Shown here: positions 121 to 6,023 of the stretch, piece by piece
Layout: each line of letters opens with the position of its first letter
Numbering within the stretch: the first letter of the stretch is position 1
Origin: a virus
Length of the DNA stretch: 25,738 nt
IMG/VR virus record: IMGVR_UViG_3300044681_000219
Location: 1-25,738 of that record
Reading direction: 5' to 3' (one strand)
The notes under the pieces: model-generated
What the model was told of the DNA's origin: nothing
The model's database searches: none
What the model saw: only the letters and a program-made list of their open reading frames with translations
Made by a program: the position numbers and the translations under genes

Positions 121-287
121 TACTCTACGTATATTTTTTGTACATTATGGTTTTAAGCCAATTGTGTGTGTTATTGTGTTAAGAGTTTGTTAAGATTATG
201 ATTTTTGTTTCCGATTTGTGTTGTTTTGTTCGTTGGTGTTTATGAGGGGTTGTTTTTTTTTGTTTGGCGCCGAGGGGGGTGTTTGTT

Positions 288-1004
288 TTGTCGTATTCTG
301 ATTTGGATACTGTTCCGACTAAGACGGCTGGTGTTAGTCCTGTTTTGGCGTCGGATTGGAATACTTATGTTCGTGATAATTTTGATTCGTTGAAGCGTGG
401 GCATATTGTTTTTGCTGATGCGGCTGCTAGGTCGGCTGTTACGCCTGCTGAGGGTACTATGGCTTTTCAGGAGGATACTGATGAGTTGTGGGTGTTTGCT
501 GATGCTGCTTGGCGTTTTTTCATGCGTGTTGATGGTAGTGCTTATTCTCATGATATTACTCCGCGTAATCAGACTGGGCCGACGGGTACTATTACGAATA
601 TGGATAATTTGTGTAAGTATCATAGGGTTGGCGAGCAGTATTCTTTTTATGGTAAGGTTTTTGCTAATGGTGGTGCTCCGAGTGCGTTTACTGAGTTGTG
701 GGTTAATTTGCCTTTTGTGATGAGTGATGAGTCGGATATTGAGTTGCTTCTGGGTGCTGGTGTGCTTCCGGGGTTTAATGCTGTGCTTAGGGATGATAGT
801 ACGGGTGCTTTGTATGATGTTATTCCTATTGCTAATGGTGGGGGTGTTAGTGCGCCTCAGTTTACAACGTTTAATTGGTGGTTGTTAGGGTATAGGGCGT
901 CTAGTAGTCTTATTAATATTATTACGAGTTCTGCGCCGTTTGCGTGGAGCGCGAATGATAGTATTATTATTAATTATACTGGTTTTGCTGGTGTGACGTT
1001 ATAG
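288..1004 (+). CDS. Tail fibre / minor tail-like protein
   Basis: A 238-residue protein read from TTG at 288, 9 bases after the G-rich Shine-Dalgarno-like AGGGGG (273-278). An in-frame GTG at 279 is too close to that site and a TTG at 264 lies upstream of it. The N-terminus, with a DLDTV motif followed by WNTYVRDNFDSL (about residues 24-35), resembles the start of many phage fibre proteins. Residues 56-76 have the pattern G-T-M-x-F-x-x-D-T-x-x-L-x-V-F-x-x-x-x-W, also seen in the three paralogues at 16252, 16756 and 17723. The rest is beta-rich with small residues and no recognised enzyme domain. Its position ahead of the terminase, far from the other adhesins, is notable. I infer a virion surface or minor tail role from family resemblance only. 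Confidence 0.55.
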   Translation: MSYSDLDTVPTKTAGVSPVLASDWNTYVRDNFDSLKRGHIVFADAAARSAVTPAEGTMAFQEDTDELWVFADAAWRFFMRVDGSAYSHDITPRNQTGPTGTITNMDNLCKYHRVGEQYSFYGKVFANGGAPSAFTELWVNLPFVMSDESDIELLLGAGVLPGFNAVLRDDSTGALYDVIPIANGGGVSAPQFTTFNWWLLGYRASSSLINIITSSAPFAWSANDSIIINYTGFAGVTL

Positions 1005-1022
1005 TATTTTAAAGGAGTTATT

Positions 1023-1148
1023 ATGATTGTTGGGCATATTACTGGTGAGCACTTGTTTGATATTATTCATCATGGCATGATTTTTGGTTTGGGTTTTTGT
1101 GCTGGTCTTATTGGTATTACGTGGATGGTTTATAAGAAGGTTAAGTGA
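1023..1148 (+). CDS. 41-residue single-span membrane peptide
   Basis: ATG at 1023 follows a strong AAAGGAG (1011-1017) with 5-base spacing. The product has a short polar N-terminus with several histidines (GEHLFDIIHH), one hydrophobic segment over residues 19-36 (MIFGLGFCAGLIGITWMV), and a basic end, YKKVK. This predicts a membrane peptide with a positively charged cytoplasmic tail. Its stop overlaps the next start (TGATG at 1146-1150), so the two are translationally coupled. Size and topology would fit a small holin-like or accessory membrane protein, but no family is recognised and no lysis enzyme is next to it. Confidence 0.7.
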   Translation: MIVGHITGEHLFDIIHHGMIFGLGFCAGLIGITWMVYKKVK

Positions 1149-1285
1149 TGTTTAATTCTAATGTTCAGCCTAAGGTTCGTAAGATTGATATTCGTAAGGA
1201 GCCTTGGGATTGTTTAAAGTGTAGTGCTGAAAATAAGCATTATATGGTTAAGTGTAAGGGTTGTGGTGAGCGTCGGCCTCATTAG
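1148..1285 (+). CDS. 45-residue RanBP2-type zinc-finger-like protein
   Basis: ATG at 1148 overlaps the previous stop. Residues 20-39 fit W-x-C-x2-C-x3-N-x6-C-x2-C exactly: Trp20, Cys22, Cys25, Asn29, Cys36 and Cys39. This is the published consensus for RanBP2-type zinc fingers, known mainly from eukaryotic RNA- or ubiquitin-binding proteins. Nearly the whole protein is this one finger, flanked by basic residues (KVRKIDIRK before and GERRPH after), which suits nucleic-acid binding. It lies directly ahead of the large terminase gene, whose ribosome site (AGGAGG, 1284-1289) begins inside its stop. Simple phage zinc ribbons also carry paired CxxC, so a true RanBP2 fold is not proved. Confidence 0.75.
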   Translation: MFNSNVQPKVRKIDIRKEPWDCLKCSAENKHYMVKCKGCGERRPH

Positions 1286-1293
1286 GAGGGCTT

Positions 1294-2751
1294 GTGGGTA
1301 ATTATTCGTATAACGAGTCGAAAATGACTGCTAAAGAGTTGGAGGCGCATATTCTGGATTATCCGGGGAAGATGGGCTGGTTTCTTAGTAAGGGTTATGC
1401 GCCACATTATTATCAAACCTTGTTTCATACGGATAAGCATAATAAGAATCTTACTCGTTTTCGGCATCTTGTGGCTGGTCGTCGTGGTGGGAAGACGCTT
1501 AGTGCGGCTTGGGAAGTATTATTTTATTGTTTGCATCCAGAACAATTCCATTTGGATGCTCATGGTCGGAAGAGCGACGCTCCTTTGTGGGTTTGGGCGC
1601 TTTCAGCCTCGTATAAGGTTGGCCGACCATCGTATCTTACCTTCCGAGACGTGTGTATTAAGGCTGGATTGACAATTGGTAAGGAAGTTAAGGAAAATAA
1701 GGGTGGTCTTCGCTTTGAATTTGAGAATGGGAGTCTTGTAGAGTTCAAATCGGCCGAGGATCCACAGTCCCTTCGTGGTGCTGGTCTTGATATTCTCTGG
1801 ATGGATGAGGCTGCTTTCATCAAAAATGATGAGGCTTGGGGTGTTATTCGTCCCTCCTTGTCGGATAAGCAGGGTTTGCTAATTACAACAACGACTCCTA
1901 ACCAGAAAAACTGGTTTTATGAAGAGTTTTTTAGTGATGATGCTCGTAAAGACGAGAATAATAGTCGCGTAGAGTATCGTAGTATTGATAATCCGTATTT
2001 TAGACGAGAAGAATGGGAATATGTGCAGTCTAGGTATCATCCGCTGCTTTTCGCACAAGAGTATATGGCGAGTTTTGACAGTATGGCAGGCAAAGACCTA
2101 GCCGGAGACTGGCTGCACTATTATTCTTCTGAGGATCTAATTGATGAGGAAGGAAAACCGCTAAAACTGCGAAAATACATGGGAGTAGACCCAGCGATCA
2201 GCCTATCTGCTAATGCGGACAGGTTCGTGATTACTATTATTGGGGTGTCAGACTCTAACGAAGTGTTTCTACTAGAGCAGTACGCGGCGCGTATCCCATT
2301 TGCGGAGCAACTTCTCAAGATTGAGGAGTATTATATTAAGTATAAGCCTGAGATTATTGGTATTGAGTCTAATGCTTATCAGGCGGCTCTAGTGCAGCAG
2401 ACGGAAAGGCTGCAAACGATGCCGCCAGTTGTTCCTTTGTTTGCTAAGGGTAAAAAGTGGGAGCGTATTCTTGCTATGTCGCCTCTTTTCCGTATTGGGA
2501 AGGTGAAGATTAAGAAGGATCATGCTGATTTTATTCAGGAATGGGTTGATTATGATTCTTCGCTTCGTACGCCTAAGGATGACTGTTTGGATAGTATGGA
2601 GATTGCTCTTCGTACGGCTGGCGCGTTGTTGGATGGTATTCAGGATCCTGTGAGGCCGGAGAGTGTGCTTCCGGATTGGGTTCTTGCTGATCGTCCTTCT
2701 GAGAAGAAGGAAGACCGTTTTGTTGACGAATTTATGGGGAGTATGTGGTAA
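1294..2751 (+). CDS. Terminase large subunit (DNA packaging ATPase/nuclease)
   Basis: A 485-residue packaging motor protein. The ATPase half shows a Walker A loop GRRGGKT (62-68), Walker B ILWMDEA (167-173) with the catalytic acidic pair, and a TTT coupling motif (199-201). The C-terminal RNase H-like nuclease half shows acidic candidates in VDPA (Asp299), IGIESN (Glu358) and PKDDCLDS (Asp429/Asp430). Length is normal for the family. The start chosen is GTG at 1294, just after AGGAGG (1284-1289); ATG at 1324 is an alternative with no comparable site. The protein would dock on the portal (3218) and work with a small subunit, possibly the HTH protein at 5517. Around 2080-2310 codon use shifts to A- and C-ending codons, unlike the rest of the gene. 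Confidence 0.95.
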   Translation: MGNYSYNESKMTAKELEAHILDYPGKMGWFLSKGYAPHYYQTLFHTDKHNKNLTRFRHLVAGRRGGKTLSAAWEVLFYCLHPEQFHLDAHGRKSDAPLWVWALSASYKVGRPSYLTFRDVCIKAGLTIGKEVKENKGGLRFEFENGSLVEFKSAEDPQSLRGAGLDILWMDEAAFIKNDEAWGVIRPSLSDKQGLLITTTTPNQKNWFYEEFFSDDARKDENNSRVEYRSIDNPYFRREEWEYVQSRYHPLLFAQEYMASFDSMAGKDLAGDWLHYYSSEDLIDEEGKPLKLRKYMGVDPAISLSANADRFVITIIGVSDSNEVFLLEQYAARIPFAEQLLKIEEYYIKYKPEIIGIESNAYQAALVQQTERLQTMPPVVPLFAKGKKWERILAMSPLFRIGKVKIKKDHADFIQEWVDYDSSLRTPKDDCLDSMEIALRTAGALLDGIQDPVRPESVLPDWVLADRPSEKKEDRFVDEFMGSMW

Positions 2752-2752
2752 T

Positions 2753-3091
2753 ATGCCTGAGTTTATTGATATGAGGGGTAATGGCGCTGATGCTATTACT
2801 GGTGAGCGGGTTATTCCGGGTGAGCGTGTTTTTGATACGGGTATCCGTAATAAGAGTGGTTCGTATTTTCGTAATTCTAGGAATCGTGTTCTTAAGGAGG
2901 CTACGATTGTTTGGCTGGCGGAGCAGGCAGGATACACTGTTACTAAGCGTAATGCGGGAAATTCTGGAAACGCAAAGAGCGTGGACGGAGCGGATGCTAG
3001 CGTTGGAGGAGGAAAGGCTAAGGCTGGAAAGGCTAAGGCTGGAGGGAGCGCAGCCGCTAAGCAGCGATCCGATGGGGATGCTAAGGATTAG
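2753..3091 (+). CDS. Unknown small protein, C-terminus overlapped by the next gene
   Basis: ATG at 2753 is one base after the terminase stop, giving 112 residues. Residues 1-65 look genuine and use the phage's normal T/G-ending codons. They include a GERVFDTGIRNKSG segment (23-36) and a helical stretch LKEATIVWLAEQAG. From about 2952 the reading becomes low-complexity Ala/Gly/Lys/Ser, while another frame (2952-3206) shows the better codon pattern. The true C-terminus is therefore uncertain. It may read through the overlap, shift frame into the downstream coil, or have lost an earlier stop by a one-base change. I do not recognise the family. Position between terminase and portal suggests a head or packaging accessory. 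Confidence 0.6.
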   Translation: MPEFIDMRGNGADAITGERVIPGERVFDTGIRNKSGSYFRNSRNRVLKEATIVWLAEQAGYTVTKRNAGNSGNAKSVDGADASVGGGKAKAGKAKAGGSAAAKQRSDGDAKD

Positions 3092-3217: not shown

Positions 3218-5527
3218 TTGGATAAGACTGGTTATGAAGTAGTTGATGAGCAGGATACGAAGGGGCTGTCGTCGGCTGCCAGTCTTGTGAAGCGTGTTGA
3301 CGAGTTGCAGCGTCAGCGTAATGAGATGGAGCGGCAGTGGAAGTTGAATCTTGCTTTTTATAAGGGTAAGCAGTATGTGTTTTATAATCGTAAGAGTCGG
3401 CGTATTGAGTCGCTTCCGACGGATGAGGGTGATAAGCCGCGTTATCGTGTGCGCCTTGTTTCTAATCAGATTGCTCCTAATACGCAGTCGCTTCTTAGTC
3501 GGCTTGTGAAGTCTAAGCCGCAGTTTTTTGCTACTCCGGGTCAGGCGTCGTATGAGGCTCAGAAGGCTACTGAGGTTGCTGAGAATCTTCTTGAGTATTG
3601 GTGGGACGCGCTGAGTCTTACTGAGAAGCGCGAAGAGGCGATGATGTGGAGTATTATTGCTGGTAATGGGTTTTGGAAGATTACGTGGGATGATAAGGCT
3701 GGGCCGGGTATGAAGGTGCTTATTGATCCTATTGAGGGTAAGCCGATTATTGATCCTATGGTTCAGCATTATTTTAGGCAGAATCTTGAAGAGGCGGGTG
3801 TTGATTACGAGCAGTTTGAACAGCGGGTGTATCAGGGCGAGATTAAGGTTGATGTGTTGTCGCCGTTTGATGTGCTTCTTGATGATTCTGCGTCGGTGTT
3901 TGAGGATTGTAAGTATGCGTTTTGTGTGCATCCTATGACTCCTGAGGAGATTCATTCTCGTTATGGTGTTCGTTTGAAGGCTAATGCTGTGAATAAGTAT
4001 CCTGATGAGACTCTTCCGGGTGTGTTTGGTAATAATGAGTCTAAGACGCAGGAGAATGTTCGTGTTGTGTATTATGGGTATTTCCTTCCGGGGGATAAGT
4101 ATCCTGATGGGCGTTTTGTTGTGTTTACAAAGGATCCTAGTGTTATTCTTTATGATGGTCCTTGGCCGTATCCGTTTGATAAGTTGCCGCTTGTGAAGTT
4201 TCCGGGATTGCGTGTTCCGGGCCAATTGTGGGATACGAGTGTTGTTGAGCAGGCGATTCCGCTTCAGAAGGAGTTGAATCGTACGTTGTCGCAGATGATT
4301 GAGTATAAGAATCTTACGTTGAAGCCGCAGATGTTGGCTCCGGTGGGTTCGCTTCGTCAGCGTATTACGGATGAGCCTGGTGCTATTTTTGAGTATAATC
4401 CTGTTGCGGGTAAGGTTCCCGAGTCTATTCCGATTCCGTCGCTTCCTCCGTATGTGTTTGAGCATCTTCAGGATCTTGGTGCGCGGTTGAAGGATATTTT
4501 CTCGTTGAATGAGATTGTTGAGGGTAGTGTGCCGCCGAATGTTGAGGCTGGTGTGGCTATTGACTTGTTGCAGGAGGCCGCTACGGATCGTATTGCTCCT
4601 CAGATTATGCTTATGGAGAAGAGTTTGGAGCGTTGTGGTAATCTTATGCTTCAGTTGGCGCAACAGTATTATACTGAGCCGCGCACGATGATTATTACGG
4701 GTTCTGGTTCTAAGCCTAAGGTTGAGCGGTTTGAGAGTGCGGATCTTATTAAGGGTGTGACTATTAAGGTTGAGGCTGGTTCTGGTCTTCCTCGTACTCG
4801 TGCTGGTCGGCAGGCGCGTGTGATGCAACTTATGCAGATGGGTATTCTTTCGCCTACGAAGGCGTATAAGTATCTTGATATGGCTGATTTTAAGGGTGTT
4901 CAGATGCAGTATGAGGCTGATGAGGAACAGGCTATGCGAGAGCATGATAAGTTGCTTGAGGGTGGTATTGTGAATGAGCAGGCCGCTAAGCAGGCAAATG
5001 AGGCTCTTATGATGAGTATTATGCAGGGTGGTGATATTGATCCGCAGATGCTTCAGCAGAGTGTTGAGGCCGGGTTGCAGCCGCTTGCGTTTGAGAATAA
5101 GGCGGTGCATTTGGAGGTTCATGCACAGTTTATGAAGAGTGCCGAGTTTGAGTCGCTTCCGCAGATGATTAAGGATCAGTTCTATAAGCATTATGAGTTT
5201 ACGCAGCAGGCTGTTGCTGCTGATGCTAATCCGACTGGGGATGCTCCGCGCGTGTCGCTGCAACTTCGTGGTGCTGTTGGGCCTACTACTGGGTCTAAGA
5301 TTCTTAATCAGGCTGGTGTTAAGGATGTTACTCCGCAAGAGTTGTTGGAGCCGCCGCTTGATACTGTGGTTATTGATAATAAGGATAAGCCTAATGCGCC
5401 TGAGGGTGCGGGCGGTGCGATGGATCAGTATCAGATGGAGTTGTTGCAGAAGTTGCAGCAGAATCAGGCTGAGGCGGATCAGAAAATGGCTAATGAGATG
5501 ACTATGAGGACGGTGCGTGGTGAGTAG
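3218..5527 (+). CDS. Portal protein (P22-like, podovirus type)
   Basis: A 769-residue portal read from TTG at 3218, 7 bases after AGGGGG (3205-3210). It would form the dodecameric ring at one capsid vertex through which DNA enters and leaves. Visible family-like features are an N-terminal helix with WKLNLAFYKGKQYV (about 41-54), VRLVSNQIAPNTQSLLSRL (78-96), and a helical ENLLEYWW ... MWSIIAGNGFWKITWDD segment (122-155). The C-terminus is a long Gln/Met-rich helix (about residues 560-640 and 725-765), like the barrel of P22-type portals. The length is close to P22's 725 and well above T7's roughly 535. Its stop overlaps the start of the small-terminase-like gene. Codon use is the typical keto-rich style. 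Confidence 0.88.
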   Translation: MDKTGYEVVDEQDTKGLSSAASLVKRVDELQRQRNEMERQWKLNLAFYKGKQYVFYNRKSRRIESLPTDEGDKPRYRVRLVSNQIAPNTQSLLSRLVKSKPQFFATPGQASYEAQKATEVAENLLEYWWDALSLTEKREEAMMWSIIAGNGFWKITWDDKAGPGMKVLIDPIEGKPIIDPMVQHYFRQNLEEAGVDYEQFEQRVYQGEIKVDVLSPFDVLLDDSASVFEDCKYAFCVHPMTPEEIHSRYGVRLKANAVNKYPDETLPGVFGNNESKTQENVRVVYYGYFLPGDKYPDGRFVVFTKDPSVILYDGPWPYPFDKLPLVKFPGLRVPGQLWDTSVVEQAIPLQKELNRTLSQMIEYKNLTLKPQMLAPVGSLRQRITDEPGAIFEYNPVAGKVPESIPIPSLPPYVFEHLQDLGARLKDIFSLNEIVEGSVPPNVEAGVAIDLLQEAATDRIAPQIMLMEKSLERCGNLMLQLAQQYYTEPRTMIITGSGSKPKVERFESADLIKGVTIKVEAGSGLPRTRAGRQARVMQLMQMGILSPTKAYKYLDMADFKGVQMQYEADEEQAMREHDKLLEGGIVNEQAAKQANEALMMSIMQGGDIDPQMLQQSVEAGLQPLAFENKAVHLEVHAQFMKSAEFESLPQMIKDQFYKHYEFTQQAVAADANPTGDAPRVSLQLRGAVGPTTGSKILNQAGVKDVTPQELLEPPLDTVVIDNKDKPNAPEGAGGAMDQYQMELLQKLQQNQAEADQKMANEMTMRTVRGE

Positions 5528-6023
5528 GCAAGAGCGTACTGAGTGGGATGATGCCGCTCGTGCTGCTACGTATGTGCAGTGGATTGCTTGTGATAAGAAG
5601 ATTCGTGAGACTAGTCGTGTGACTGGTGTTCCTCATGCTACTGTGGCTTATTGGGCTAAGCAGTGGGAGAAGGATGGTCCTCCTGAACATCTTGATAGCG
5701 AGATTCGTAAGAATGCTTACGAGTTTGTGGATCATGCTAATCGTGTTCGTAAGCAGGCTATGGAGAAGTTAGAGGAACTTATTCCTGATGCTGAAGTGAA
5801 GCAGTTGAGTGCTATTGCTACTGTGGTTGGTATTATGGATGATAAGATTCGTTTGGCTCAGGGTCTTGCAACTAAGCGTACTGAGACTGTTCATACTCTT
5901 CCCACGAAGGAGGAGATGAAAGAGTTGATGGCTGGTTTTGCTGATGGGCTTGTTGGTGCGGCGGAAGACCGTGCTAGTGATACTGTTAGTATTGAGGCTG
6001 AGAGTGTTGTTGTGAATAATTAG
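5517..6023 (+). CDS. Small terminase-like HTH protein
   Basis: A 168-residue protein with GTG starts at 5517 and 5520; GAGGA (5506-5510) serves either. It overlaps the portal stop by 11 bases. Residues 29-51 form a clear helix-turn-helix (IRETSRVTGVPHATVAYWAK, then QW), as in phage small terminases and recombinase-type HTH domains. Residues 82-115 (MEKLEELIPDAEVKQLSAIA, then TVVGIMDDKIRLA) form the helical central part seen in many TerS-like proteins, which assemble into rings that recognise the packaging site. A short acidic tail follows. Its place after the portal, not ahead of the large subunit, is unusual. A different DNA-binding role, such as a late regulator, is the main alternative. 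Confidence 0.65.
   Translation: MVSRQERTEWDDAARAATYVQWIACDKKIRETSRVTGVPHATVAYWAKQWEKDGPPEHLDSEIRKNAYEFVDHANRVRKQAMEKLEELIPDAEVKQLSAIATVVGIMDDKIRLAQGLATKRTETVHTLPTKEEMKELMAGFADGLVGAAEDRASDTVSIEAESVVVNN

Follow-up and report, generated by a model that had tools for sequence, protein, structure and literature searches.

RanBP2-type zinc fingers (PF00641) occur in Nup153, RanBP2, ZRANB2, FUS, TAB2 and Trabid. Other small zinc ribbons serve as points of comparison for the protein described here: the generic prokaryotic ribbons (Zn_Ribbon_1, DZR, RadA and LapB) and the ribosomal protein eL40 (archaeal L40e), which is small, basic and built on a C4 ribbon. Among phages, the Com protein of phage Mu is a small zinc-binding protein that binds mRNA and activates translation; its cysteine spacing and gene context differ from those reported below. 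In ZRANB2, the GG of the RNA is read by W79, R81 and R82 and the U by N76 and N86 (PMC5499739). In archaea, a RanBP2-type finger is one of the domains of ArnA, a larger protein of the FHA kind (PMC6509490), and a viral use of the finger is indicated by a Nitrososphaera provirus protein annotated as RanBP2-type, the gene context of which is unlike the one described here. We characterized a 45-residue phage protein, referred to as ZnF, that shares with the RanBP2-type fingers the exact spacing and the tryptophan two residues before the first cysteine. Unlike them it is a stand-alone protein and lacks their RNA- or ubiquitin-recognition residues. If the family acts in packaging or assembly, it would show that phages use, as an entire protein, a fold familiar mainly from the nuclear pores and splicing factors of eukaryotes.

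The ZnF gene lies at the edge of a hypervariable stretch

The window, a virus record of 25,738 bases, codes for the large terminase subunit (TerL), a portal and a major capsid protein (MCP). Its features are listed in Table 1.

Table 1. Positions of the ZnF gene, its neighbours and other features in the window
Feature	Position	Strand	Remarks
246-aa ORF and 41-aa membrane peptide, upstream of ZnF	264..1148	+	hypervariable stretch
41-aa membrane peptide	1023..1148		within the region swapped from phage to phage
45-aa zinc-ribbon microprotein (ZnF)	1148..1285	+	RanBP-like finger, residues 20–39; basic N-terminal segment, residues 1–19
Zinc-ribbon core, Trp20 to Cys39 codons	1205..1264	+	sequence and alignment of 82 homologues
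TerL, directly downstream of ZnF	1294..2751	+	PHROGs phrog_2, E 2.5e-35
Gene after TerL	2753..3091		no cysteines
168-aa protein	5517..6020		helix-turn-helix resembling a sigma-factor region (PHROGs E 4e-4)
ORF of at least 1805 aa	20322..25736		runs past the right end of the window

The ZnF protein has the sequence MFNSNVQPKVRKIDIRKEPWDCLKCSAENKHYMVKCKGCGERRPH. The ORF, its length, its basic character and the pattern W-x-C-x2-C-x3-N-x6-C-x2-C at residues 20–39, with Trp20, Cys22, Cys25, Asn29, Cys36 and Cys39, had all been given in a first-pass annotation and were found as described; the net charge is +6. The ATG start shares one base with the TGA stop of the upstream 41-residue ORF (TGATG), and 8 nt separate the TAG stop (1283–1285) from TerL, which starts with GTG. 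Translated in six frames, the window contains a single instance of the full pattern; it was absent from 60 dinucleotide shuffles, in which the bare spacing C-x2-C-x10-C-x2-C turned up four times. As intact homologues stand just upstream of TerL in close relatives and 82 distinct homologues could be collected, the motif is not a product of chance, and both ORF and motif are real. Purifying selection on this conserved gene is shown by a median pN/pS of 0.40 (46 close homologues, 1035 pairs).

The first-pass annotation had placed ZnF between a membrane peptide and the large terminase gene. This describes the downstream side well, but the membrane peptide is a changeable rather than a conserved neighbour. 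Among phages with near-identical TerL the hypervariable stretch, at positions 264–1145 of the window, consists of unrelated DNA and ends at the ZnF gene: identities of the upstream DNA are mostly 0.33–0.67, about random in most segments, while the DNA of TerL is up to 99% identical. DNA identities are ∼0.8–0.96 in ZnF and 0.92–0.99 in TerL for the closest phage pairs, and ZnF is the first conserved gene past the stretch. The stretch may therefore be an exchanged cassette of fibre genes that has the ZnF gene at its recombination edge. The 246-residue ORF found no match in PHROGs; judged by position, it probably codes for a fibre or other virion protein. Since ZnF is kept where everything upstream is replaced, it belongs to the core genes and its role should be independent of the fibre genes.

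ZnF homologues form one family in uncultured phages

Homologues were gathered via TerL: phages were collected by their TerL and the DNA upstream of it was inspected. Iterated profile searches over 189 loci yielded 82 distinct full-length members, which come from phages with TerL down to ∼50% identity. An intact homologue is present just upstream of TerL in 46 of the 47 close relatives with enough upstream DNA, usually with 11–12 nt from the last codon before the stop to the TerL start. The exception (L024:1390-1528) carries a broken ORF, which has lost the first knuckle to a deletion and is frameshifted by it; this is either a true loss or an assembly error. In the far set ZnF was found in 29 of 37, a rate that is only indicative since the set was checked partly after the matches were known; some contigs without a homologue extend only a short way upstream, and L058 has a ZnF fragment at its contig edge. 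Each of 12 larger contigs searched contains one copy. Near-type members begin with MF[NG]SNVQP[KR] and far-type members with M-x-[IV]-x-V and, after it, [NG]GTxAG[WR][KR]; the near and far alignments represent one family (hhalign probability 99.7, E 2e-25).

Other genes can separate ZnF from TerL by 1–3 kb in distant members, and in many distant phages the ZnF gene starts a few bases after a structural-looking gene. A ClpP-like protease, judged by the appearance of its sequence, is encoded between ZnF and TerL in five distant phages (L071, L080, L109, L175 and L188), and an HNH-endonuclease-like ORF, apparently an insertion, occupies this place at L020:3661-4004. The contig that carries the homologue L188:514-651 and its TerL is part of a metagenome-assembled genome of Dehalococcoidia, possibly a hint at the host for part of the lineage and possibly a binning error.

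Among close relatives, ZnF identity follows TerL identity loosely (Spearman 0.40, and 0.08 when TerL is restricted to its first 60 columns), and phages with 99.6% identical TerL can have ZnF proteins that are just 80% identical. Either recombination at the boundary or the absence of tight co-evolution could explain this.

With three members as tblastn queries, a set of 50,697 phage records yielded only weak, unconvincing matches; TerL relatives among cultured phages are ∼27% identical or less, and MCP relatives (phages of Arthrobacter, Microbacterium and Cellulosimicrobium) lack a ribbon gene of this kind upstream of TerL. No family named in Pfam, PHROGs or NCBIfam covers ZnF (best PHROGs match ∼1e-4, ‘unknown function’), and our literature search found no paper joining RanBP2, zinc finger, phage and terminase. 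ZnF represents an undescribed, conserved phage family at the junction of fibre genes and TerL in a large uncultured lineage, with a fold of known kind.

Database searches and structure prediction point to a RanBP-like ribbon

The best PDB sequence matches of the single window protein were RanBP2 ZnF8 (E 0.0011, isolated finger) and Nup153, with archaeal eL40 chains next after the RanBP-type fingers (E 0.15). Matches of the family profile were led by Nup153 (2.3e-5), RanBP2 and RBM10, with RadA also among them; the far profile likewise placed RanBP fingers first, with RadA and rubredoxins below. The AlphaFold2 model, a single chain without zinc, reached a pLDDT of 81 (∼90 over the finger) and displays two crossed hairpins round one putative zinc site. 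Foldseek superposed it on the Nup153, RanBP2, Trabid and ZRANB2 fingers at 0.4–0.8 Å over 25–28 residues, and VIA Z was 3–4 for RanBP-type fingers; so tiny a domain yields weak E-values in Foldseek, the best being 0.03. The ArnA finger (8s05), a use of the same finger in a prokaryote in a different gene context, was among the fold matches, and a distant ZnF member without Asn29 gave the same RanBP-type result. With sequence, family-profile and fold matches all led by RanBP2-type fingers, the predictions agree with the fold proposed in the first-pass annotation, and a RanBP2-like two-hairpin fold can be regarded as well supported at the level of modelling.

Membership in the Pfam family was a different matter. 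The zf-RanBP profile search suggested earlier gave 14.3 bits (E 0.025) for the window protein, below the PF00641 gathering cut-off of 27 bits. At E up to 1, 19 of 32 alignment members match PF00641 (best 8.5e-6); DZR and Zn_ribbon models are the more frequent matches of far members, and distant members score equally well or better against the generic prokaryotic ribbons. The C-x2-C-x10-C-x2-C spacing is also that of Zn_Ribbon_1 and RadA. Unlike these generic ribbons, ZnF has an invariant tryptophan before the first cysteine, and RanBP fingers come first in its profile and fold searches. The NCBIfam models of RadA/Sms and LapB were matched weakly and locally, at 12.5 of 403 and 11.7 of 430 bits, by homologues alone; as they cover whole proteins, a lone ribbon cannot attain their cut-offs. 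The sole NCBIfam match of the window protein was L40e (NF003161, E 0.04), far below the cut-off at 13.4 of 54 bits. Because the gathering score is missed and far members favour DZR and Zn_ribbon, we term ZnF RanBP-like and do not count it as a PF00641 member. Its initial description as one exact RanBP2 finger is correct for the motif in the window, but does not extend to the Pfam score or to Asn29 in the family.

The tryptophan is invariant and the RNA-reading residues are absent

Conservation of Trp20 and Asn29 had been chosen beforehand as a test of the assignment, and the outcome is divided: Trp20 passes, whereas Asn29 does not, which weakens the label of an exact RanBP2-type finger. Trp20 is present in 82/82 homologues, as are Cys22, Cys36 and a basic residue (K/R) at position 9, whereas Asn29 is found in 42/82 (His in 18, the remainder mostly hydrophobic or Cys). 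Cys25 is kept in 79/82 and Cys39 in 73/82, so that these two cysteines vary more than Trp20 does. The other nine members (L056, L062, L067, L074, L076, L114, L119, L120 and L121) read CPxD, and from the alignment the aspartate at the fourth position may be a changed zinc ligand. Some members have C-x-C or C-x2-G-H as first knuckle; the ribbon of this family tolerates ligand changes while Trp20 stays constant. Position 32 is Tyr, Phe or Trp in 78/82 homologues (Tyr32 in the window protein) and position 33 mostly Tyr, Trp or Met; Arg43 and Pro44 are conserved in 78/82 and 71/82, respectively. Net charge is positive in all members, from +1 to +10 with a median of +5.

A test of the peptide for GGU-type RNA binding had been suggested. 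By spacing from the cysteines, the equivalents of W79, R81, R82, N76 and N86 of ZRANB2 in ZnF are K30, Y32, M33, A27 and K37. None of the five contacts is kept, and GGU reading was rejected on this basis. Ubiquitin or Ran binding was also discarded: in the ubiquitin-binding NZF fingers Thr-Phe (TF) directly follows the second cysteine, ZnF has Ser26-Ala27 there and its homologues other residues, and such partners are not expected in bacteria. The face of ZnF equivalent to the RNA-reading face is aromatic (Tyr32 and an aromatic residue or Met33) and lies beside conserved basic residues. Together with the uniform positive charge this suggests unspecific contact with nucleic acid; an interface with a protein is almost as good a fit.

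Possible roles of ZnF

We tentatively propose that ZnF is a late two-hairpin zinc ribbon that contacts nucleic acid or nucleoprotein in assembly or packaging. The protein would be expressed late, and zinc, with the four cysteines as predicted ligands, would hold a small platform. The aromatic pair at positions 32 and 33, the C-terminal Arg43-Pro44 and the invariant Lys/Arg9 would form its exposed face. As the phage is assembled or packaged, this face may touch nucleic acid, or a partner bound to nucleic acid, and would do so without GGU recognition. A role in packaging itself is possible from the gene order. As a packaging or assembly factor, ZnF would bring a conserved zinc protein into the terminase module of an uncultured phage lineage that is widespread. 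The fuller version, in which a whole family of stand-alone RanBP-like ribbons serves packaging or assembly and holds nucleic acid by an aromatic-plus-basic face instead of Trp/Arg, appears rather unlikely. Several observations count against nucleic-acid contact in packaging: the weak tracking of TerL identity is unlike a tight TerL partner, although recombination at the boundary could explain it; TerL is distant from ZnF in far members; and for eukaryotic RanBP-type fingers proteins are no less frequent as ligands than RNA.

An alternative is a protein–protein adaptor, modelled on Ran-, ubiquitin- and RPL11-binding fingers, in which the ribbon docks on one partner protein (TerL, portal, the virion or host RNA polymerase) via its aromatic face and the charge is incidental. 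The best structural matches include the protein-binding fingers of Nup153, RanBP2, TAB2 and Trabid, and the conserved aromatic pair and RP motif (43/44) suit a protein interface. Such an adaptor needs neither positive charge in every member nor an invariant basic residue 9, and ZnF lacks the TF motif that marks ubiquitin-binding fingers; we consider it doubtful, if a serious contender to nucleic-acid contact.

The eL40 matches, together with the one-base overlap with the upstream ORF and the short distance to TerL, would fit a ribosome- or mRNA-binding regulator that modulates late mRNA translation in the manner of eL40 or Mu Com. These matches are weaker than that to RanBP2, and the family-invariant Trp20 is a RanBP feature, which makes such a regulator improbable. 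Least probable of all is a host-takeover microprotein kept variable by an arms race with a host factor. ZnF does diverge faster than TerL, but its gene is located in the structural and packaging region, its position at the edge of a recombining stretch explains the variation and its pN/pS indicates constraint.

Other genes of the window and its relatives

Some relatives encode a second C-x2-C…C-x2-C protein after TerL (L071:4254-4634, L072:5438-5803 and L080:5028-5462); any homology between these genes and the cysteine-free gene at this place in the window is weak. The 168-residue protein with the helix-turn-helix is, by position, possibly the small terminase subunit.
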